A DNA stretch of 11,268 nt. Source: Chitinophagaceae bacterium. GTDB lineage: Bacteria > Bacteroidota > Bacteroidia > Chitinophagales > Chitinophagaceae. The position numbers and the translations under genes were made by a program. The notes under the pieces are model-generated. The model was not told the origin of the DNA, searched no databases, and saw nothing but the letters and a program-made list of their open reading frames with translations. The stretch is from NCBI GenBank assembly GCA_947378615.1, contig CANCKV010000047.1, forward strand, positions 1 through 11,268, given 5' to 3'. This document shows, piece by piece, positions 1 to 10,751 of this stretch; position 1 is the stretch's first letter; every line of letters begins with the position of its first letter.

Positions 1-2450
1 TGTACTATTACTATATTACTTTCTTGATTTACCTCTATTTCTTCGCCATCTTCATTCAGGAAAGCCGTGTCATCATTGCAAATAAATGTGCCTTGCAATT
101 CCTCTTTTGAATTATAAATACCCCAAACTAATTTAGTGGCATAGATAAACATGACAGGGTTATTTAAAAAGAATTGCTGCCATTGTGAGAAACTCCACTT
201 TCCTTGAATGATTAGATAATATTCTAAACGTGGGGATTGCGACTTGACAATCTCCCTTATTTCTTTTGAAATCGTTTTAAATTCATCTTTTAAGGAAGTG
301 CTTGCCTTTGCAGGAATTGATTTAAGCTGCTTATTGTCTTCATCAAAGAAGGCAATCTTAAATTTACTATCGATGAATGCCCTAAATTCCTCTCCATCTA
401 CTTCAAAGCTTTTGAATAAACCATCAAAACCAAAATCAGGTACTATCTTATCTCCTAATTCGTGTGTTGTAATCCCTAGTTCCTCAGCAGCGGTAATCAA
501 TGCTTTTAATGCAGCCGCACCCACATTTGCTTTTTTATTTCGATACTTTCTACTATACCATTCCACCCATCTCAATGCTTTATCACTGCCATTTAGTGCC
601 AATGCCTCCACACCATATTCAGCCATTTTGTGGCGATTATACTCTATCCAACTATTCGTGGTCGTTCTTATTTTATCTACAATTTCATTTCCTCCGAGTT
701 GTGTAGCCAACGCCATTAAGTATTTATGCTCGGGTTTAGTATCTTTTTCCCTAAAAATTTTCAGCAGAAATAATGCAAAGGGAGTTGCTTTTTCCTTATC
801 TATTTTATTCAAGATAAACTTAGCTTCTATATCTGAATTGATTCCTTTTGCACGGGTTGCCCTGTAAAAAAGGAAACGGATAGTCTCATGATTCAAAAGG
901 CTGCCATCTTGAAAGTAAATAGCAGGCAACAAAGATTCTTCTAGCCAAGGTTCAATAGGCTTTTCAAGTTTACTCCTTTTCTTTGCTGCTTCAATCATTG
1001 CTGTGAGGAAATCACTATTCGCTTCTTTTGGCAAAGCATCCCTTACTGATTGTAGTAGAATATCCCTTGCATTATCATTCACTTCTTTATTCAATACGTT
1101 CATGATAGCTTCTGTCGCCTTTGTACTATCAGAGAAACTTAAGATAATAGCTGCAATCTGTCGAATATCTGAATGCTTACTATCCAATAATTTGATGGCT
1201 TTGTTTTCAGACTCTTCGTCATTTTCTGCAATAACTTTGGCAACTAATTCCCTTAAAGGCTTCGATTTGTGATTTATTAACGACCAAATAATTGGCAAAT
1301 ATTCTTTAGGCGTAAAACTCTTTTTCATTAATTCAATCACCGATTGATAATATCTCGCTCCTCCTACAGGTGCAGTTGTTTTGATGGCATAAGCAAAATA
1401 AGGAAGTAAGTCTTCTCCTTTGAGAAAAGATGGTATGATAGTTAATATATCAGTGTTCATGAATACATTTTCATCCATCCACTCGGATAACGTAAGAATC
1501 GCCTGTTCTTTTTTGTAAGTAAGCAGGAAGAAAAATGAATAAGCACTCATTTTGAGATTACCAATAGGAATGAGGCTTTTTGGTTGTTTGTAATAAACAT
1601 TTTCCCAGGTTTCTTTTGGAGTATGAATCCTGTAAAAATCAAGATATTGTTTAGAAATTTGTGATACCAAATCACTAAAGAAACCATTTTCTGTATCGTA
1701 CAAACTTATTGCCAACCTAAATTTCATTATCAATGTAGCAATATTGGGATTCTGTTGATTGGTTAGAATTTCTAAAATCGGATTTAAATATTTACCATCT
1801 TGATAGACTTTAAAAAGCAATAATGGGAAATTATAATCTTTACAAATTCCTTCTTGTATATAATGGAGTAAAAACTCGGGTTTAGCTAGTTCAATAAGTT
1901 TAAAATAAAAAGCACTCCAAATATAATTTGAAGGTAAAATTAGTTTATTAGCTAATTTGATATAATTGAGTAAGTAATGATTTATTAATCCTTCTGTAAT
2001 AGGATTGTTTAGACTTTCATTTGAATTTTTAAAATGAAATCCAAAAACTAGTTGAATGAATATTTCATCTTCATTTAAACCTAGGCTTTTATAAAGTAAT
2101 AAAGCTGCATTTAGCACTTCTTGTGTTTCTTTCTCTTTAATTGATTTTATTATCCAATTATTTAGTGATTCCCTCATATAGGGATAGACCAATGGATGAA
2201 AAATAATATCAAAAACCAATTTATCTTTGGGAGATAACTCATCTATATTTCCCAACAAATCAACAATCCTAACTAACTGTATAATATTATAAGCACTCTG
2301 AAGTCCATTGAGAGAATTAGATTTACCAGTTAAATAATCAATTATAACACTGTAGTTTGGGTGATTTCTCATCTCTTCGTTACCCAATATTTGTTGTATA
2401 CGAGTTGTTGTTGCAATTGCCTTTTCTATTTCCTCAATTGTAAATGCCAT
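1..2450 (-). CDS. DUF4132 (MolR/YehI-like) protein, 3' end cut by window
   Basis: An open frame starts at the ATG complementary to 2448-2450 and stays open for 816 codons to the left edge, so the C-terminus is missing. It begins M-A-F-T-I-E-E-I-E-K. Residues about 1-430 are Leu/Ile-rich helices without a clear motif. Residues about 430-560 look like HEAT/ARM-type repeats (K-S-K-P-L-R-E-L-V-A-K-V, then H-S-D-I-R-Q-I-A-A-I-I). From about 620 come the DUF4132 signatures: R-W-V-E-W-Y with K-A-N-V-G-A-A-A-L-K-A-L, then E-L-G-D-K-I-V-P-D-F-G-F-D near 665-676, L-K-S-I-P near 700, and N-N-P-V-M-F-I-Y-A-T-K-L-V-W near 760-773. DUF4132 includes E. coli YehI and MolR, whose biochemical role is not settled. 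The start lies 23 bp after the VWA stop, so the two are probably co-transcribed. The family call is firm; a scaffold role is inference. Confidence 0.9.
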   Translation of the reverse strand, partial: MAFTIEEIEKAIATTTRIQQILGNEEMRNHPNYSVIIDYLTGKSNSLNGLQSAYNIIQLVRIVDLLGNIDELSPKDKLVFDIIFHPLVYPYMRESLNNWIIKSIKEKETQEVLNAALLLYKSLGLNEDEIFIQLVFGFHFKNSNESLNNPITEGLINHYLLNYIKLANKLILPSNYIWSAFYFKLIELAKPEFLLHYIQEGICKDYNFPLLLFKVYQDGKYLNPILEILTNQQNPNIATLIMKFRLAISLYDTENGFFSDLVSQISKQYLDFYRIHTPKETWENVYYKQPKSLIPIGNLKMSAYSFFFLLTYKKEQAILTLSEWMDENVFMNTDILTIIPSFLKGEDLLPYFAYAIKTTAPVGGARYYQSVIELMKKSFTPKEYLPIIWSLINHKSKPLRELVAKVIAENDEESENKAIKLLDSKHSDIRQIAAIILSFSDSTKATEAIMNVLNKEVNDNARDILLQSVRDALPKEANSDFLTAMIEAAKKRSKLEKPIEPWLEESLLPAIYFQDGSLLNHETIRFLFYRATRAKGINSDIEAKFILNKIDKEKATPFALFLLKIFREKDTKPEHKYLMALATQLGGNEIVDKIRTTTNSWIEYNRHKMAEYGVEALALNGSDKALRWVEWYSRKYRNKKANVGAAALKALITAAEELGITTHELGDKIVPDFGFDGLFKSFEVDGEEFRAFIDSKFKIAFFDEDNKQLKSIPAKASTSLKDEFKTISKEIREIVKSQSPRLEYYLIIQGKWSFSQWQQFFLNNPVMFIYATKLVWGIYNSKEELQGTFICNDDTAFLNEDGEEIEVNQESNIVIV

Positions 2451-2473
2451 GATGCAATATTTTTATTTATACC

Positions 2474-3634
2474 TTATTTTCTCAAAATCAAATCTTCCTT
2501 TGCTGCCCAAATACTGATGTCCTGTTTGCTTAGTGCATGTGCCATTAAATCAGGGAATTTATCGGGTGTACAAGCAAATACGGGGATACCTAAACCCGCT
2601 AGAAATTGTGCATTATTATGGTCGTACGAAGGTGCACCATCATCATTCAATGCCAACAACACTATCACCTGTACTCCTGCAGCAGTTAGTTCTACGGCTC
2701 GTTTTCGCATCTCATTTTGATTGCCTCCTTCATATAAATCTGTAATCAACACCAATACCGTGTCAAGTGGTCTAGTAATGATTTGTTTGCAATAGGTCAG
2801 GGCAGAATTGATATCGGTACCACCACCAAGTTGCACACCAAATAAAAGTTCTACAGGGTCGTCGAGTTCTTCTGTTAGGTCGGCTACAGCAGTATCAAAC
2901 ACAATCATCCTGGTTTTAATGGCAGGAATAGATGCCATCACCGCACCGAAAATGCCTGAATAAACAACAGAGGTTCCCATTGAACCGCTTTGGTCTAAAC
3001 ATAAAACAACGTCCTTTAACGAGGAACGTCTTCTGCCATAGCCAATCTTAATTTCGGGAATGATGGTTTTATATTCGGGTTGATAATGCTTTAGATTCTT
3101 GAGGATAGTACTATGCCAATTGATTTCATTATGACGTGGTCTCCTATTTCTAACACTCCTATTCAAACTTCCTGATATAGCCTGTTGCATAGGTTGAGAC
3201 AGCTTTCTCATCAATTCATCCACTACCTTTCTAACCACTTTCCTTGCCGTATCCTTTGTCTTATCGGGAATGACTCGACTTAACGTCATCAATGTAGCCA
3301 CCAAATGAACATCTGCCTCTACGTTTTCGAGCATCTCTTTTTCAAACAACATTTGGGTGAGATTCAGCCTTTCCAAGGCATCACGCTGCATAACCTGTAC
3401 TACTGAACTAGGGAAAAATGAGCGAATATCTCCCAACCAACGGTTTACATTCGGAGAAGAAGGACCCAAACCTCCCTCTTTACCACTTCCTGTACCGCCA
3501 CCACCATTGCTATCATACAAAGCAGAAAGTGTATTATCCATTGCCAAATCCTGACCAGAAAGATTAATTCCTGTTCCATCATGTTGATGACCACCGAGTA
3601 TTAGCCGCCATTTTCGCAATTGTTCTTCATTCAT
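2474..3634 (-). CDS. VWA domain protein (YehP-like), MoxR partner
   Basis: The product is 386 residues. The N-terminus is polar with a Gly-rich linker (about 43-58), followed by a helical region (about 70-180) and a basic stretch (R-N-R-R-P-R-H, about 162-168). The VWA domain begins near 205 and has a complete MIDAS: D214-Q-S216-G-S218, T273 in G-G-T-D, and D299 in L-I-T-D-L. It should therefore bind a divalent metal and a partner acidic residue, as CoxE/CobT-type VWA proteins do. There is no signal peptide or membrane segment, so it is probably cytosolic. MoxR ATPases usually work with a VWA protein, and one is encoded in this cluster two genes upstream. Length and architecture match E. coli YehP as I recall it. 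The gene follows a 394-bp spacer containing the 21-bp array and is followed after 23 bp by the DUF4132 gene. The leader before the ATG is A/T-rich. Confidence 0.92.
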   Translation of the reverse strand: MNEEQLRKWRLILGGHQHDGTGINLSGQDLAMDNTLSALYDSNGGGGTGSGKEGGLGPSSPNVNRWLGDIRSFFPSSVVQVMQRDALERLNLTQMLFEKEMLENVEADVHLVATLMTLSRVIPDKTKDTARKVVRKVVDELMRKLSQPMQQAISGSLNRSVRNRRPRHNEINWHSTILKNLKHYQPEYKTIIPEIKIGYGRRRSSLKDVVLCLDQSGSMGTSVVYSGIFGAVMASIPAIKTRMIVFDTAVADLTEELDDPVELLFGVQLGGGTDINSALTYCKQIITRPLDTVLVLITDLYEGGNQNEMRKRAVELTAAGVQVIVLLALNDDGAPSYDHNNAQFLAGLGIPVFACTPDKFPDLMAHALSKQDISIWAAKEDLILRK

Positions 3635-3792
3635 TTTTTATATTGATTAATAAATTAAATGATTTTTTGATAGATAAAATTTTCCAAATGGAACACAATG
3701 TTTTTCACAATCTTAATAATTATTTTAAACATTAGCTCCTATTATTTTTACTGAAAACAAGACAAATCAGTGAATCACGCTAGTTTTAGTCA
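3635..3792. other. AT-rich leader of the VWA gene
   Basis: This non-coding segment lies between the VWA start and the 21-bp array. It is strongly A/T-rich. I see no ORF, no convincing TAnnTTTG promoter element on the minus strand, and no strong hairpin followed by a T-run. With the array it forms the 394-bp gap between the DUF5682 and VWA genes. Whether the VWA gene has its own promoter here cannot be decided from the sequence. Confidence 0.5.
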
Positions 3793-4023
3793 ATTTCGTC
3801 GTACGGTGTTTTCAAATCGTCGTACCTTGAATTGAAATCGTCGTACGGTGAAATGAAATCTGCATACGGTAATTTGAAATCGTCGTACGGAGAAATGAAA
3901 TCGTCGTAAGGAGAAATGAAATCTGCATAAGGAGATTTGAAATCGTCGTACGGTAATTTGAAATCGTCGTAAGGAGAATTGAAATCTGCCTACGGTAATT
4001 TGAAATCGTCGTACGGTGATTTC
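3793..4023. repeat. 21-bp tandem palindromic repeat array, 11 units
   Basis: Eleven uninterrupted 21-bp units run from 3793 to 4023, starting at 3793, 3814, 3835, 3856, 3877, 3898, 3919, 3940, 3961, 3982 and 4003. The best unit is AAATCGTCGTACGGTGATTT plus one base. It is an imperfect palindrome centred on CGTACG, with AAATC/GATTT arms and two G-T wobbles between. Units 4, 7 and 10 carry TCTGC(A/C) in place of TCGTCG, which gives a 63-bp higher-order period. Units 6, 7 and 9 have TAAGG instead of TACGG. The array begins 5 bp after the DUF5682 stop. I recall a related intergenic repeat in Bacteroidota with the fully symmetric form AAATCGCCGTACGGCGATTT, but have not verified this. It is not a CRISPR array: there are no spacers. 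Confidence 0.95.
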
Positions 4024-4028
4024 AAATT

Positions 4029-6266
4029 TTAATACCCCAATAACTCCATCACCACAGGTATTCCCAACTTGCCTCTTTCCCTGTCAAAACTATTTTCTTC
4101 AACTCTTGCTAGCGGATTTACCTTATCGCCATTCTTCACCTTTTCGCCCAATTTCCGTCTTTCTACACTTGTAAATTTGCTGAAAGTCCTTCGCAATAAT
4201 GGCAGTGCTTCTATAAAATTCTCTTCCTTTAATTGACATACCCAATTATTAACCATCTGCCACAGGTTTTCATCTATCAATAATAAAGTACCACTACTTC
4301 GTAAAAACCCTTCCAACCAAGCCGCTACTTCTGCCACAGGCAATGAACGACTCAAATTGCTGAAGAACAAATTATCCAAGTCTGCTTCAGGAAGGTTTTT
4401 TGCATCAAAGAGTTGTCGAGTAGCAAAGCCCCTCATCATCGGTGCTGCATTCGTCAGATAGGCAACCTTTATCAGGCAATCAGTCCATTGCTTGGTATAA
4501 TCCTCTTCTTGTAAAGTTTTAATGCTATGACTGATACTAATACAATCTTCTGTCAACGTAGTGGCCGTTTCTTCATTTATTCCACAACACGCTGCAGGCA
4601 ATCCAATGCAAACCCTTGTTATGATACTCTCAGCTATCTGTCGCACCATTTCTGCATCGGTGTTTCGTACATTCCCGTACCGCATGATTTCGATGAGACC
4701 AGGCAATATGCCTACCAACTGTATCACATCATTTGTGGCTGCTGCAACATCGAGAATCCGTACTGCAATCGCTTTTGCAGCACCAGACAAATCGGCTGGA
4801 ATGACATCTTTTAGCATTTCGGCTATTGGCTTCAAGGCAGTTTCCTGATTACACTTTTGAATCAACCACGCATTACTTGCCTCCTCTAGCGTATTACCCC
4901 AAACACCCTTCTCAATTATATGGACTACAAAAGAGGGATTCCATTGCAATCGCCATTGTTCCTTGAATGTCCCCTTTCCATTGACAACAGTTTTACTCCC
5001 CCATTCGATACCCATTAGCAATAACCTATGTAAGAAAATACTTCTTTCCAAGTCTCCTTCTTTTCGTAGGTCTAGTGCATAATCCTTCCAATCGGCAGTG
5101 GCAGGGAGTCTTAAACGCTTTTGATATTTTTCAATATCCATCTGTAGGGGCGGTTTTGGAATATCTTCAGGTACAGTACCAATCCTATTACTGACAATTA
5201 ATTCCGACTTAATCAGGGCAAGTAATATTGATTCGCCATTACAAAGAACACTTAGAGTAGCCTCGTTCAATTCTTCTAAACCGACTTTGGAAAGGTGGCG
5301 TAACGATGAAAGAGATTCTGCCAAACGGACTGCTTCAATGACATGTGCAACAGAAGTATCCATTTGATTTTTTCTAAATAGATGTGCCACTTTAGTCATC
5401 CATAAAGTGCCATCATCAGCAGGATTTTTCCAAACATGGTCATACCATCCTGGAGATTCTATGCCCGCACCATAGCCACTAAACATACTTAAACGACTGT
5501 AAGTCCAAGGTATCCAAGTAGTTTCTATCTTTACTTTTGGTAAGTTTTTAAGCAATTCATTGTCTTCTTTCGCTTTAGGCATATTCGTCAATGCGGGTAC
5601 ATGCCAAGCACCACAGATGACTGCAATATTTTGAAACATTTCTTTTTCTGCCTGCCGAATCGTCTTCCGCATTGATGCCTCTCGAAGTTGTTCCCTATAA
5701 TCTGTTGTTGATGGATTTGATTCCCTTAGTGCCTGCATTGCTTCAGAGATAGCCGTAAATACCTCTTCATTATTTTGACGATGCTCAAACATGGATTCCC
5801 ACCATCGTTCTTCACTTGTAAATCCTGCTGCATCGGCAAGGTGTTGCAAGGGATTTCGATGAAATTGGAGCGTGGTTTCATTTACTTCAGCACTATTGTC
5901 TTCAATGACTGTTGAATCATTTTCTGATTCTTTATTTTTCGCACTCTCTATCGCAAACCAATGAGTCAAGGGCAAATCCATGAAACGTACATGAATATTG
6001 ACTCTTTTAGCATATTGTATAGCCTGCCATTCGGGCGAGAATTCTGCAAAAGGATAGTAAACAGATTGTTGAATATTATCGGTTTGATAGGCAAGAATAG
6101 CAACGGGTGGAACTAATGCAGGATGATTGGCATATTGCAAAAGACCATCTGCTTCTGTAGGACCTTCCACCAAAACAATATCGGGTTGTAGGTTTTCCAA
6201 GAATGCTTTTACATTCTTGGCAGAACCCGGTCCGTGATGCCGAATACCTAATATATGAATAGCCAT
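4029..6266 (-). CDS. DUF5682 family protein with TraB/TIKI/EreA-like N-terminal motifs
   Basis: The product is 745 residues. The N-terminus H-I-L-G-I-R-H-H-G-P-G-S is followed by a helix and P-D-I-V-L-V-E-G-P (28-36). A second motif, A-V-I-C-G-A-W-H-V-P-A-L (H222), lies near 215-226, just after R-E-A-S-M-R (195-200). Two G-x-x-H motifs (H10, H222), E34 and the upstream Arg resemble the metal- or catalytic-site pattern of the TraB/TIKI/EreA/ChaN superfamily. I infer an enzyme of that fold; substrate and reaction are unknown. Residues about 105-132 form an acidic linker (inserted or disordered). The remainder, from about 290, is mainly helical. It ends M-E-L-L-G-Y. No signal peptide or membrane span is seen. 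From memory it corresponds to E. coli YehM. It is set off by repeat-rich spacers on both sides (509 bp upstream, 394 bp downstream), so it may have separate expression control. Confidence 0.9.
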   Translation of the reverse strand: MAIHILGIRHHGPGSAKNVKAFLENLQPDIVLVEGPTEADGLLQYANHPALVPPVAILAYQTDNIQQSVYYPFAEFSPEWQAIQYAKRVNIHVRFMDLPLTHWFAIESAKNKESENDSTVIEDNSAEVNETTLQFHRNPLQHLADAAGFTSEERWWESMFEHRQNNEEVFTAISEAMQALRESNPSTTDYREQLREASMRKTIRQAEKEMFQNIAVICGAWHVPALTNMPKAKEDNELLKNLPKVKIETTWIPWTYSRLSMFSGYGAGIESPGWYDHVWKNPADDGTLWMTKVAHLFRKNQMDTSVAHVIEAVRLAESLSSLRHLSKVGLEELNEATLSVLCNGESILLALIKSELIVSNRIGTVPEDIPKPPLQMDIEKYQKRLRLPATADWKDYALDLRKEGDLERSIFLHRLLLMGIEWGSKTVVNGKGTFKEQWRLQWNPSFVVHIIEKGVWGNTLEEASNAWLIQKCNQETALKPIAEMLKDVIPADLSGAAKAIAVRILDVAAATNDVIQLVGILPGLIEIMRYGNVRNTDAEMVRQIAESIITRVCIGLPAACCGINEETATTLTEDCISISHSIKTLQEEDYTKQWTDCLIKVAYLTNAAPMMRGFATRQLFDAKNLPEADLDNLFFSNLSRSLPVAEVAAWLEGFLRSSGTLLLIDENLWQMVNNWVCQLKEENFIEALPLLRRTFSKFTSVERRKLGEKVKNGDKVNPLARVEENSFDRERGKLGIPVVMELLGY

Positions 6267-6775
6267 ATTTGAATGCGATTATTTTTTTATTTCTCTAACA
6301 CTACTAAGAAAACAGACTCAACTCCTTTAACTCAAGTTCAATTATTTTTTCTTCCTTTCTTCTATTCTTCCTTTTTCTTTGCGCTTCTTTGCTTCTTTGT
6401 ATCTACTATATAACTTCTATTCAGAAAAGCGTTCTAATGCTACGAAGTAGCATTCCTCTGTGACCTACTTTTCAATAAAACATAGAAAAATGCTATGTCT
6501 TTTCTATGTGGCTATATGCCTATGTGGTAGCCTACTTTATAACTTCTTATCAAAAAGTCGTTTCCAATGCTACGAAGTAGGATTGCTATGTGAACTTCTT
6601 TTCAATTAAACACAAAAAAAACTATGTCTTTTCTATGTGGCTCTATGCCATGTGGTAGCCTTTTTTCTTTTCTAAAAGTTATTTAACCAGAAACATGAAT
6701 CCCTTTATTTCTCACTTTGTGTTGAAAAAAAACTTTGAATCTTTTCCTTTTTTGATTATTTCTCAATATGCATTA
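6267..6775. other. 509-bp repeat-rich spacer between MoxR and DUF5682 genes
   Basis: This gap holds no credible ORF. From the DUF5682 side it contains an A/T-rich leader (6267-6340), a polypyrimidine tract on the plus strand with repeated CTTTG(C) words (about 6340-6400, including CTTTGCGCTTCTTTGC), two ~129-bp direct repeats (6403-6660), and an A/T-rich tail to the MoxR stop. The CTTTGCG-type words resemble intergenic repeats common in Bacteroidota and other bacteria; that comparison is from memory. No convincing TAnnTTTG promoter element was found on the minus strand. On the minus strand this would be the 5' leader of DUF5682 if the genes are co-transcribed. Confidence 0.6.
6403..6660. repeat. 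Two ~129-bp direct repeats with internal hairpin
   Basis: Copy 1 is about 6403-6531 and copy 2 about 6532-6660; offsets between matching words are 128-130 bp. Shared words include TATAACTTCT, AATGCTACGAAGTAG, TTTTCAAT(A/T)AAACA, CTATGTCTTTTCTATGTGGCT and TGTGGTAGCC. Each copy holds a hairpin. In copy 1 it is perfect, AATGCTAC-GAA-GTAGCATT (6436-6454). In copy 2 (6566-6584) one base change puts a mismatch in the stem. Further short dyads are ACATAG/CTATGT (6480-6498, copy 1) and GGC-TATAT-GCC (6510-6520). The copies are diverged, so the duplication is not recent. No transposase or terminal inverted repeat is visible. Confidence 0.85.
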
Positions 6776-7855
6776 TTAATTCAAATCCCTTGACGCCCTG
6801 TAAATATCTTTCCAGTCGTCCCTTGTCTTAATCACCGTTTCCAAGTACTCTTGCCAAACAATCTTATCCTGAACAGGGTCTTTTAAAACGGCACCGAGAA
6901 TGCCCGCAGCCAAATCTGCCGCCTTCAATTGTCCATCTCCAAAATAACCTGCCATTGCCAAACCATTGTTGACAACAGAGATAGCCTCAGCCGTACTAAG
7001 CGTTCCTGTAGGCACTTTTAATTTGGTTTTCCCATCAGTAGTTACCCCATTTCTCAATTCACGGAAGATGGTGACTATTCGTCTAATCTCCTGCAAAGCA
7101 GGCTTTTCAACAGGCAGTTCCATTATCTTTTCATAACTAGCCACTCGACGCTGAACAATATCTATTTCTTCCTCCATACTATCAGGAACGGGAAGAATAA
7201 CGGTATTGAATCGACGTTTCAAGGCACTTGACAATTCATTTACGCCCTTATCCCGATTATTTGCAGTGGCAATGATATTAAACCCTCTTATTGCCTGCAC
7301 CTCCGTATTTAACTCAGGAACAGGCAATGATTTCTCGGAAAGAATGGTAATCAAGGTATCTTGTACATCTGCACCAATACGGGTCAGTTCTTCAATACGT
7401 ACTATTTTGCCGTCTTTCATCCCCCTGATAACAGGTGTTTCCACTAAGGCAGATTCGCTCGGCCCTTCTGATAATAGCTTGGCATAATTCCAACCATATC
7501 GAATAGATTCTTCACTAGTTCCAGCCGTGCCTTGAATAATCAAGGTACTATCTCCACTAATTGCAGCAGCCAAATGTTCACTCACCCAACTTTTTGCAGT
7601 ACCCGGAAGTCCATATAGCAGCAAAGCCCTATCGGTAGTAAGAGTGGCAACGGCTATTTCCATCAACCTTCTACTGCCAATATATTTCGGTGTTATCTCG
7701 AAACCATTTTTCAGTTTTCCCCCAATCAAATATGTGACCACTGACTGCGGAGTCAACTTCCAATTAGTAGGACGTTTTCCCGTTTCCGACTTTTTCAACT
7801 CCTCTAATTCCTCTGCAAATAACTCTTCCGCATGACTCCTTAAAATGTTTGACAT
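6776..7855 (-). CDS. MoxR-type AAA+ ATPase, YehL subfamily
   Basis: The product is 359 residues. The N-terminal helix is charged (E-E-L-F-A-E-E-L-E-E-L-K-K). Walker A is G-L-P-G-T-A-K-S (82-89, K88); the Ala before Lys is normal for MoxR proteins. Walker B is K-I-V-R-I-E-E-L (150-157), with E155-E156 where D-E is usual. Sensor 1 is A-T-A-N-N-R-D (196-202) and the arginine-finger region is L-K-R-R-F (212-216). In the lid, S-T-A-E-A (287-291) sits where many MoxR proteins have S-P-R-A, so a sensor-2 Arg is not evident. MoxR ATPases act as hexameric chaperone-like machines with VWA partners; YehL is one recognised subfamily. The partner is probably the VWA protein at 2474-3634. The gene follows DUF5691 after 104 bp and is followed by a 509-bp spacer. 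Cytosolic; clients unknown. Confidence 0.95.
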   Translation of the reverse strand: MSNILRSHAEELFAEELEELKKSETGKRPTNWKLTPQSVVTYLIGGKLKNGFEITPKYIGSRRLMEIAVATLTTDRALLLYGLPGTAKSWVSEHLAAAISGDSTLIIQGTAGTSEESIRYGWNYAKLLSEGPSESALVETPVIRGMKDGKIVRIEELTRIGADVQDTLITILSEKSLPVPELNTEVQAIRGFNIIATANNRDKGVNELSSALKRRFNTVILPVPDSMEEEIDIVQRRVASYEKIMELPVEKPALQEIRRIVTIFRELRNGVTTDGKTKLKVPTGTLSTAEAISVVNNGLAMAGYFGDGQLKAADLAAGILGAVLKDPVQDKIVWQEYLETVIKTRDDWKDIYRASRDLN

Positions 7856-7907
7856 ATCTCTTGTTTTAATTTATTAATTCCTTTACTTTTTACTTAAAAA
7901 ATATAAC

Positions 7908-7935
7908 GTAAAACCTACAACGTATAACCTACAAC
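7908..7935. repeat. 14-bp direct repeat, two units
   Basis: Two adjacent 14-bp units, GTAAAACCTACAAC (7908-7921) and GTATAACCTACAAC (7922-7935), differ at one base. They lie between the DUF5691 stop and the MoxR start and run into a CTCATCACTC-type simple repeat. On the minus strand they read GTTGTAGGTT(A/T)TAC. No promoter or terminator function can be assigned. Confidence 0.8.
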
Positions 7936-7965
7936 TCCTCACTCATCACTCATAGTTCATCACTC
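7936..7965. repeat. GAGTGATGA-type simple repeat at the DUF5691 3' end
   Basis: On the minus strand this reads GAGTGATGA, then CTATGA, then GTGATGAGTGAGG. The first GAGTGATGA spans the DUF5691 stop codon (GAG TGA TGA). The same GAGTGATGA--TATGA pattern occurs at 11087-11102, at the stop of the upstream gene. Such words are, from memory, common between genes in Bacteroidota. The origin of the element is unknown. Confidence 0.7.
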
Positions 7966-9444
7966 TCCAAAAGCTTGTTTAACCTGTTGTTTTAATACTA
8001 ATAATTTATTGATATAGGCAACTGTAATTGCCCAACTATTCTTAGCATATTCTTCCGATGGCATACAACTTTCCAATATGCCCGATGCCTGAACGGGTAT
8101 CAATTGAATATGTTGATTATAAAAACTACGATTGTATTGATAAGGATTCTTTGCAGTAAAGGCAAATATTTTCTTTGTCAATACAAGGCTCCACTCTTGC
8201 TGTTCTTTAATGACTAAGTTCATCAACGGAACCGACTCCTTTTCAAAATACTTTAAAATGTATTTTTCCTTCAATTCAGTGGGTAACAATGGAATCAGGA
8301 CTAAATAAGTCTTTTCCTCCCTATCCATAAAATGAATTGCCCAATTGTTTGCTTTAAACTTTTTAATAGCCAAAGAAAGTGACTCAATGAAAACCTTTCC
8401 CTTATCCGACTTATCAAGAAAATCAATGATTTCCTTTGCAGATAATTGAAGGTGTTCTTCCCAAAAAGAGGGAGGCACTTGTGCAATCAATTGTTGCAAG
8501 ATATAATCTTCATCAGAAATGTTCTTTTGTGGGCTTAACTTTTCAATTCCCGACTTAAATATTTCTTCCTCAATATTTGAAATCAGGTTGAAATGAAGTA
8601 CCGTTTTTGAAGAAAGTCCAAACAGGGCCTTTTCTTTCTTTAAAATGACCGATTCCCTCAAGATTTCTTTATACTTTTTGATGATAGTTGATTCAGGAAT
8701 TAGCTTTAACAATCGCAAGGCCTCATCCTTTACTTTTGAGCTTTTATCTTTAGATAAAGTCTCCAACCATTCTGCATCATCAACTGATAAGTTCGTTTCA
8801 AGCACTTCCAAAAAAGCCTGCTTGGTAGCCGCATTTTCCTGTTGCCATGTCTGTTGAATCCATTCTCTAGCTTTTGAAAACTCTTTAGTCCTTACATTCT
8901 CAAGCACATTTTTTCTTTGTTCAAACGTTCCCGTTAGCCAAAGTTCATCATCTAAAATACTAACTGCAAAAAGCCATTCACTATTAAATTTACTCAGCCA
9001 TCTACCTCTTTTTCCTCCGCAGGTTTCTACCAAATTGCGTAATTGCTTTTGTTGAATAGCCTTGTCAAAAAGGGTAGGTAACCATTCGGGATGAACCAAT
9101 AGATTTCGGTTTGCACATTCCAATAGCCAGATTTTTAGTAAAGGATTGCTATCCTCAAATAAGATATCCTTTAAGACCTGCTTTGCAAAATCGCTACAAT
9201 ATAAAAGGGTTTCTTCTTCTGCAATCGTATTTTCTATTTCCTTATTCAAAGCGGTTACTCCTGCCTGCCTATAATTAAATACCAAACTTGCAGATTGTAA
9301 GAATTTCTCTTCGTTTTCAATTGTTTCATTCGAGTGAATGGTTGAGAATGCAGTGTTTAATTCAGTTTCAAAGTCAGTAAGTTCAAGTGGTTTCTTTGCT
9401 GTACCTATCAAAGCTGTTTGTACTATTTTGTTCAATTGCTCCAT
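7960..9444 (-). CDS. DUF5691 helical-repeat protein
   Basis: The product is 494 residues. The N-terminal I-V-Q-T-A-L-I-G-T (7-15) is typical of DUF5691 proteins. A second recognisable block is G-K-R-G-R-W-L (144-150) followed by N-S-E-W (154-157). The region about 205-255 looks like a HEAT-type unit: W-L-E-T-L-S-K-D-K-S-S-K-V-K-D-E-A-L, then L-L-K-L-I-P-E-S. The rest is alternating amphipathic helices with no catalytic motif, signal peptide or membrane span, so a scaffold or adaptor role is the best inference. The start is 5 bp after the SWIM stop, which indicates tight co-expression. The ATG has an A/T-rich leader. The last codons (Q-A-F-G-E) end at GAG TGA TGA inside a simple repeat. The family call is good; a molecular function is not known to me. 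Confidence 0.88.
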   Translation of the reverse strand: MEQLNKIVQTALIGTAKKPLELTDFETELNTAFSTIHSNETIENEEKFLQSASLVFNYRQAGVTALNKEIENTIAEEETLLYCSDFAKQVLKDILFEDSNPLLKIWLLECANRNLLVHPEWLPTLFDKAIQQKQLRNLVETCGGKRGRWLSKFNSEWLFAVSILDDELWLTGTFEQRKNVLENVRTKEFSKAREWIQQTWQQENAATKQAFLEVLETNLSVDDAEWLETLSKDKSSKVKDEALRLLKLIPESTIIKKYKEILRESVILKKEKALFGLSSKTVLHFNLISNIEEEIFKSGIEKLSPQKNISDEDYILQQLIAQVPPSFWEEHLQLSAKEIIDFLDKSDKGKVFIESLSLAIKKFKANNWAIHFMDREEKTYLVLIPLLPTELKEKYILKYFEKESVPLMNLVIKEQQEWSLVLTKKIFAFTAKNPYQYNRSFYNQHIQLIPVQASGILESCMPSEEYAKNSWAITVAYINKLLVLKQQVKQAFGE

Positions 9445-9449
9445 TTTGG

Positions 9450-10751
9450 CTAAATATTTATATATTGGTTATTAATCCATACTCCAAACGGTTCAAATTC
9501 ATTTTCCTTTCCAATCACTGCCATATTAAGTGGTTTTCCACCGCTTAAAGAAAGTAATTTATATAGGTTAGTAAACCCTTCTGTAAGCAGTACCGAATGA
9601 TTGTTTTGGTCTTTTAGCCACCATTTATTGTTGTAATTAATAGGTGTAATCTGCTCAATAATAAACGGTCTTATTCCACTAAATGGTAGTTTGGTAGTAA
9701 TAGAAGTTTCCATCAATGCAATTTCATTCCATGAAGAAAGACCTGCTATCGTTTGTGATAAATCAGCATTGATTTGTTTCTTAATGATTGCCCGAAGAGG
9801 AGATACGGAAGGGAAAAATACCAATTCTGCCTCAATGCATGCACCTGTAGAAAGGGAGAAGGCAATCCCTTGACCTCTAACACTAAACTGTAAAACCAAC
9901 GCATAACGTTTAGTTTTTGTGCCATAAAGCCAATTTCTCTCAGTGGTTATCGCATCTTCTTCTTGTACTTGTTTACCCAAAACCAACCAATTATCAATGA
10001 TACCATTCAGTTCTTTCAGTTCATCTTGACTTTGTGTAAACCCAATACTACTACGAATGTCTTCGAGTAAAAGAGGATTCAGCTTTTCCTTATTTTTATA
10101 ACCGGCAATTACAAGATAAATTCTACATAATTGATTCATAAACAGACTTTGCCAGCCTTCCTTATAAAAGTTGATGCGGCCTAATTCCTTAAGCATATTT
10201 GCAAGCCCAGGTGCTTTTGCATCAATCATTCTTTTTGATAGGTTATCAAAAACCGCAGTGCCATTTTCGGGGATAGAGATGATGCCGTTACGAACCAAAT
10301 CCTTCATCCAAAGCAGTAAGTCCTCAATGCCATCTTCCACTAATTGTTCGCGTGCTTTTTGACGTTTTGCCTGTGCAACTTCATCAACAGGTTTATCCTT
10401 TTGTTCTGCCTTCTTCTCGGCTCTTTCGGTTCTTTTTTCCAACCAATCCGCTACCCATTGTGGAGGGGTGGTATCTGTAAAACTATTAGAATGCTTAGTG
10501 TGAAAAAGAAGTAAACCCAAGCCATGTTTGCAAGGAAACTTTCTGCTAGGGCAGGAACATTTAAAAGAAAGGGAAGATAAGTCAATCTGTGTTTGATAAG
10601 GTTTACTACCACTGCCTTGACATTCGCCCCAAATAGCCATTTCATTAATGCCTTTGCTAACCCATTTAGACAGGGTCGACAAATCCTTGCCTGCTTTCTT
10701 AGAGGGTTCGTCGGGGGCAAGCGCCAATATTTGATCTTCAGATAATTGCAA
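9450..10751 (-). CDS. SWIM zinc-finger protein (YehQ-like)
   Basis: The product is 433 residues. The N-terminal block L-S-E-D-Q-I-L-A-L-A-P-D-E-P-S is typical of this SWIM family. The motif W-G-E-C-Q-G-S-G-S-K-P-Y (41-52) leads into the SWIM finger C65-S-C67-(x6)-C74-K-H76, the expected CxCx(n)CxH zinc ligands. SWIM domains bind DNA or proteins. A highly charged Lys/Glu/Arg helix, likely coiled coil, follows at about 104-140; the C-terminal half has no motif I recognise. The chosen start is TTG at 10751: an in-frame TGA lies five codons upstream, and the next in-frame ATG (residue 38) would remove the conserved N-terminus. The gene leads the cluster, with an operator/promoter-like region about 240 bp upstream, and is followed after 5 bp by DUF5691. 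It may be the nucleic-acid-contacting subunit of the module (inference). Confidence 0.92.
   Translation of the reverse strand: MQLSEDQILALAPDEPSKKAGKDLSTLSKWVSKGINEMAIWGECQGSGSKPYQTQIDLSSLSFKCSCPSRKFPCKHGLGLLLFHTKHSNSFTDTTPPQWVADWLEKRTERAEKKAEQKDKPVDEVAQAKRQKAREQLVEDGIEDLLLWMKDLVRNGIISIPENGTAVFDNLSKRMIDAKAPGLANMLKELGRINFYKEGWQSLFMNQLCRIYLVIAGYKNKEKLNPLLLEDIRSSIGFTQSQDELKELNGIIDNWLVLGKQVQEEDAITTERNWLYGTKTKRYALVLQFSVRGQGIAFSLSTGACIEAELVFFPSVSPLRAIIKKQINADLSQTIAGLSSWNEIALMETSITTKLPFSGIRPFIIEQITPINYNNKWWLKDQNNHSVLLTEGFTNLYKLLSLSGGKPLNMAVIGKENEFEPFGVWINNQYINI

Follow-up and report, generated by a model that had tools for sequence, protein, structure and literature searches.

A five-gene MoxR/VWA core with an optional DUF4132 gene and a TraB/TIKI-like domain in its DUF5682 protein

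What a MoxR ATPase and a VWA protein do in the constant company of SWIM, DUF5691 and DUF5682 proteins is the question raised by a locus of a Chitinophagaceae bacterium. The window (contig CANCKV010000047.1, analysed at its full length of 11,268 bp, i.e., the whole contig of a genome bin that is 68% complete) holds six open reading frames (ORFs), all on the minus strand, to which ORF calling and Pfam assign, in order, SWIM, DUF5691, MoxR, DUF5682, VWA and DUF4132 proteins. An earlier, sequence-only reading had described these six same-strand genes with their domains, including two tight junctions of 5 bp (SWIM/DUF5691, 9445-9449) and 23 bp (VWA/DUF4132, 2451-2473), and the ORF coordinates and Pfam confirm that description. 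The same reading regarded the six genes as one module. The module is real and broader than was claimed then: it consists of a five-gene core (SWIM, DUF5691, MoxR, DUF5682 and VWA) and an optional sixth gene, DUF4132. Two parts of its proteins had been overlooked, namely, an OB-like C-terminal half of the SWIM protein and a TraB/TIKI-type domain of DUF5682.

The relatives compared were the best 80 of at least 545 confirmed DUF5682 loci obtained when a DUF5682 alignment was used to scan the species contigs of GTDB; being the best of at least 545, they lean to closer relatives. Within these best 80, MoxR and VWA are each present in 73, DUF5691 in 70, SWIM in 66 and DUF4132 in 12. Gene order was judged in the 58 loci in which DUF5682 is flanked by 5.5 kb or more upstream and 2 kb or more downstream, and 22 of the 80 were set aside. 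The order SWIM-DUF5691-MoxR-DUF5682-VWA, on one strand, recurs in 51 of these 58 well-flanked loci, and within the 58 it is found in six phyla (Bacteroidota, Cyanobacteriota, Pseudomonadota, Chloroflexota, Planctomycetota and Verrucomicrobiota; for some relative loci, the phylum is the one to which we take them to belong). A locus not among the 58 (L053) adds Acidobacteriota. Both MoxR and VWA are present in 56 of the 58, and the proposed regular association with DUF5682 and DUF5691 is borne out. SWIM, or SWIM together with DUF5691, is missing in four well-flanked loci, and an Armatimonadota locus (L070) shows MoxR-DUF5682-VWA only. In one well-flanked locus from Planctomycetota (L073, 5634-8615), SWIM and DUF5691 are fused in a single 994-residue frame, with the SWIM model at residues 5-449 and the DUF5691 model at 484-990, in agreement with Pfam. 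DUF4132 adjoins the core in 10 of the 58 loci, all among the 51, and lies between DUF5682 and VWA in two. The five-gene part of the module thus recurs in order, more often than chance would allow, but the sixth gene is optional. Rare co-occurrence with a YehL-type MoxR, which the sequence-only reading had named as refuting, does not apply to DUF5682 and DUF5691, which regularly accompany it, but applies in part to DUF4132, which is absent from 48 of the 58 loci. In neighbour clustering, additional partners reached 9 of the 80 loci at most.

The five proteins might be mere neighbours, brought together by shared regulation or inheritance rather than by work in one machine. In favour of this, DUF5682 stands in two well-flanked loci (L043 and L062) without any partner in the stretch examined. 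However, this explanation appears highly improbable, given that the order is kept across six phyla, that core junctions in relatives are short or overlapping (medians of -4 to 15 bp, with longest-frame starts), that SWIM and DUF5691 are fused in L073 and that the genes are retained together even when they are dispersed. Indeed, three genomes (G127, G185 and G037) keep all five core genes at five separate places, which points to a common function that goes beyond linkage; the similar layouts of G127 and G185 make it probable that these two are related. Among 118 genomes of the bacterium's own phylum, DUF5682 exceeds the cut-off in three and DUF5691 in the same three, its own genome among them, with a fourth DUF5691 match under the cut-off. 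Among 194 genomes of the cyanobacterial phylum, the corresponding numbers are nine and eight, all eight being shared, and one more genome for DUF5682 and eight more for DUF5691 show nothing but sub-cut-off matches.

The ATPase of the core (359 aa; 6776..7855, minus strand; PF07728 (AAA_5), 122 bits) is, by its sequence, a YehL-type MoxR protein and is predicted to be ATP-driven. It shares 40% identity with E. coli YehL in an alignment of 365 columns, compared with 21% with RavA over 180, in a comparison that comprises two E. coli MoxR proteins and a mostly unresolved tree with flagged long branches. YehL is a named MoxR subfamily (PMC3893208). In a 12-sequence alignment, the Walker A motif G-L-P-G-T-A-K-S (7589..7612, minus strand; G82, P84, G85, T86, A87 and K88), an acidic Walker B-like pair (E155-E156), and the sensor and arginine motifs are invariant. 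The VWA protein (386 aa; 2474..3634, minus strand; PF05762, 161 bits) is a homologue of E. coli YehP, with 32% identity over 370 columns; all 12 aligned rows share its MIDAS motif DxSxS (D214 to S218; 2981..2995, minus strand) as well as an Asp further on, and 11 of them have the MIDAS Thr. The earlier assignment of a YehL-type MoxR with a VWA partner therefore stands. A MoxR ATPase with a VWA partner is also what defines the likeness to RavA-ViaA, but the two ATPases are as distant as the RavA comparison above indicates, and the E. coli ravA-viaA locus is, by annotation, without such partner genes.

DUF5682 (745 aa; 4029..6266, minus strand; PF18934, 871 bits), a homologue of E. coli YehM, is the protein on which the pair may act. 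Its N-terminal part (residues 1-262; 5481..6266, minus strand) looks like a TraB/TIKI hydrolase in fold and motif set, and the same applies to YehM; the remaining part (4029..5480, minus strand) is mostly helical in the AF2 model (pLDDT 88.3 over 745 residues), with helical-repeat matches at residues of about 415-714. When PDB chains were re-aligned (VIA-align), the highest Z (10.0) went to a TraB chain, in a tie with helical chains that match the C-terminus, and a BFVD search with the model placed a TraB protein on top; these TraB hits are single-domain matches within a 745-residue model. The DUF5682 alignment comprised 67 of 76 full-length loci and the window; H10, H11, E34, R195, E196, G219 and H222 are invariant in 72 rows. 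Of these residues, H10/H11, E34, G219 and H222 align with TraB H34, E58, G228 and H231, in keeping with the TraB/TIKI pattern of a His after strand 1, a Glu after strand 2 and a late Gly-x-x-His. Profile support is weaker: the comparison of the DUF5682 N-terminus with TraB is collinear and scores above all 60 decoys, but its probability is only 15 to 28% (68% in one direction). Moreover, PF01963 (TraB) gave no Pfam match to DUF5682 at E 0.1, a gumN-type TraB set matched over 26 columns only, and the DUF5682 sequence found nothing in the PDB at E 1, with three chance-level matches in the profile search. A PDB search with YbaP retrieved no TraB chain (best E 0.53). Because whole-protein Foldseek results are dominated by helical-repeat proteins, the N-terminal assignment rests on VIA-align, BFVD, the motifs and the profile comparison. 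Thus, compared with the TraB/PrgY/gumN and TIKI superfamily (PF01963), DUF5682 shares the fold and has its His, Glu, Arg-Glu/Asp and Gly-x-x-His motifs in the same order, but lies under Pfam detection, continues into a large, mostly helical C-terminal part and is tied to an AAA+/VWA pair. Given this domain, the role of enzyme within the set appears likelier for DUF5682 than that of a passive client.

The reading that we prefer, with a probability of approximately one half, is that the five-gene core encodes one ATP-driven MoxR/VWA machine working on a TraB-fold hydrolase, with the SWIM/DUF5691 pair as an adaptor. The MoxR ring would act via the VWA adaptor on DUF5682, and the TraB-type active site of the latter would be opened, assembled or released at the expense of ATP. 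DUF5682 itself would hydrolyse its substrate, most probably as a peptidase or esterase, and the SWIM/DUF5691 pair would select or position the target or sense a trigger. DUF4132 would be an optional extra, and the setting may be intracellular stress, which is a guess. A bolder version, which is tentative and on balance doubtful, holds that this is a new type of cytoplasmic hydrolase gated by ATP, in which a YehL-type MoxR/VWA motor controls a TraB/TIKI-fold peptidase (DUF5682), SWIM-OB/DUF5691 adaptors choose the targets, and E. coli K-12 has a reduced form, yehL-M-P-Q.

The same domain could, however, serve without cutting anything. ChaN is a haem-binding member of the TraB/TIKI superfamily. 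By analogy with CoxD-CoxE and NorQ, the MoxR and VWA proteins might be a chaperone that inserts a metal or haem, or matures an enzyme, with the TraB-fold domain of DUF5682 binding the cofactor. Several observations would suit such a role: the best Pfam match of the VWA protein is VWA_CoxE, a PDB sequence search with MoxR lists NorQ among its matches, and H10, H11, C218 and H222 of DUF5682 could be metal ligands. In addition, genes that we take, from their sequences, to belong to SUF-like iron-sulphur assembly lie upstream of the core in six loci (five of Chitinophaga, with L055 from Flectobacillus). Most MoxR roles reported to date are also in maturation (PMC3893208). However, SUF-like neighbours are limited to a few loci, mostly of one genus, and no other cluster of neighbours, whatever its kind, occurs in more than 9 of 80 loci, so that no client enzyme is recognised beside the core. 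Cofactor insertion or enzyme maturation is rather unlikely.

If DUF5682 is the enzyme, the SWIM and DUF5691 proteins are the candidates for target choice. The SWIM protein (433 aa, TTG start; 9450..10751, minus strand; Pfam SWIM, 22.3 bits against a cut-off of 19.6) resembles ZSWIM8 and comprises a zinc finger, a helical part and a C-terminal half (residues 244-428; 9468..10022, minus strand) that tentatively resembles tandem OB folds. Across 49 rows (48 of 63 loci and the window), the finger residues C65-x-C67 ... C74-x-H76 (10524..10559, minus strand) are invariant, and the OB-like half has a net negative charge (mean -4.7). The neighbouring DUF5691 protein (494 aa; 7960..9444, minus strand; PF18944, 297 bits) possibly consists of HEAT-like helical repeats, HEAT_2 being below the cut-off. 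The sequence-only reading had assigned target recognition to the SWIM finger, and this is not established. In G127 and G185, the two probably related cyanobacteria with scattered genes, the homologue lacks the finger (L116:3244-4203 and L117:3043-4002); the match to the SWIM protein begins past it, and no finger motif occurs within the surrounding 7 kb, yet the rest of the protein and the other four core genes are kept. A second, weak SWIM-finger match is present in the bacterium's own genome (a 544-aa frame, C8:13658-13756, 21.4 bits).

An OB-like half could also bind nucleic acid, and the patchy spread of the genes (DUF5682 over the cut-off in 3/118 and 9/194 genomes) would suit a MoxR-VWA system for phage defence or conflict, in which DUF5682 would be the effector and SWIM/DUF5691 the sensor. 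MoxR-vWA ternary conflict systems with bpMoxR, VMAP and iSTAND components exist and likewise have a MoxR and vWA pair at their core, with a CoxE-like vWA (PMC7159879). However, the present ATPase is not of the bpMoxR type (21.7 bits with the bpMoxR profile, under the cut-off of 27), and DUF5682, DUF5691 and SWIM are constant, whereas the systems described there swap effectors. The ORFs nearest to the core match 102 PADLOC models, compared with 31 for far ORFs, at E <= 1e-10 (75 nearest and 71 far ORFs from 40 of the 80 loci). It should be noted that these counts are of models rather than distinct members, so that the difference is no measure of enrichment, that dozens of models may be hit by a single kinase or reverse transcriptase and that, among the matches listed, no PADLOC family has more than one flanking member in either set. 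For the six proteins themselves, PADLOC gave no convincing model: the best E values are 4.3e-4 (MoxR) and 0.0037 (DUF4132), and the other four proteins have no match at E 0.1. The acidic charge of the OB-like half, the recurrence of the same five genes and their scattering in three genomes, unlike a mobile cassette, also argue against defence, which we consider improbable.

Comparison with E. coli K-12 places the proposed machine in a wider context. Its genes yehI (DUF4132), yehK, yehL, yehM (DUF5682), yehP (VWA_CoxE) and yehQ (SWIM), annotated as putative or uncharacterised, are likewise clustered, and besides the identities of MoxR and VWA given above (40% and 32%), DUF5682 is 24% identical over 760 columns and DUF4132 27% over 248 columns to their yeh counterparts. 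However, E. coli has no DUF5691 (it served as a control row of the genome scan), yehQ follows VWA instead of preceding the core, and yehI comes first. The proposed E. coli parallel is therefore genuine as a cluster but lacks DUF5691 and has its SWIM gene at the other end; yehI-L-M-P-Q is a divergent cousin. YehQ was considered as a full SWIM-protein homologue and rejected, as the SWIM-protein model finds no relation outside the finger. A region of the K-12 yehH pseudogene adjoining yehI (L003:2411-5267) matches the DUF4132 model. Another divergent set, in a cyanobacterium (L114:3302-11445), comprises a small ORF, a 464-aa protein, VWA, MoxR and a 952-aa DUF5682 that keeps the motif residues; the small ORF is SWIM-like by eye and has no Pfam match. 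In the 5.39 million PMC papers searched, DUF5682 and DUF5691 do not occur, and among the papers listed no description of the function of YehL partners was found, a search by yeh names mostly matching a surname.

The remaining features concern the optional gene and the layout of the window. The DUF4132/HEAT protein (3..2450, minus strand) has 816 visible residues and no stop before the contig end; PF13569 matches with 64 bits at profile positions 2-110 of 179 only, and HEAT_2 falls just under the cut-off. The loci with SUF-like genes upstream of SWIM (L016, L018, L020, L024, L036 and L055) also carry DUF4132. In syntenic L021, L023, L026, L029 and L033, a large protein, presumably helicase-like and in L029 about 1555 aa long, lies just beyond VWA on the opposite strand. 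According to PMC8533742, a DUF4132 gene of D. radiodurans is upregulated on DdrO depletion, which may hint at DNA damage for this optional gene only. Apart from the two tight junctions, those of the window are loose (104, 509 and 394 bp), a point absent from the sequence-only reading, and roughly half of either of the two widest gaps consists of tandem repeats. Between DUF5682 and VWA, a 21-bp unit is repeated 11 times (3796-4027), beginning just beyond the DUF5682 stop codon, and between MoxR and DUF5682, a 129-bp unit occurs twice (6403-6661). In relatives, these two junctions are mostly at most 50 bp (64 of 70 and 52 of 73, with longest-frame starts). Promoter and terminator scans gave signals at shuffle level. 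The nearest named relatives of the DUF5682 protein are Chitinophagaceae.

To our knowledge, no MoxR/VWA pair has so far been linked to a hydrolase of the TIKI type; this one would be the first. The putative TraB/TIKI domain in DUF5682/YehM provides a candidate enzyme for the YehL branch, with named residues to mutate, and the uncharacterised yeh genes thereby become a question that is directly testable in E. coli.

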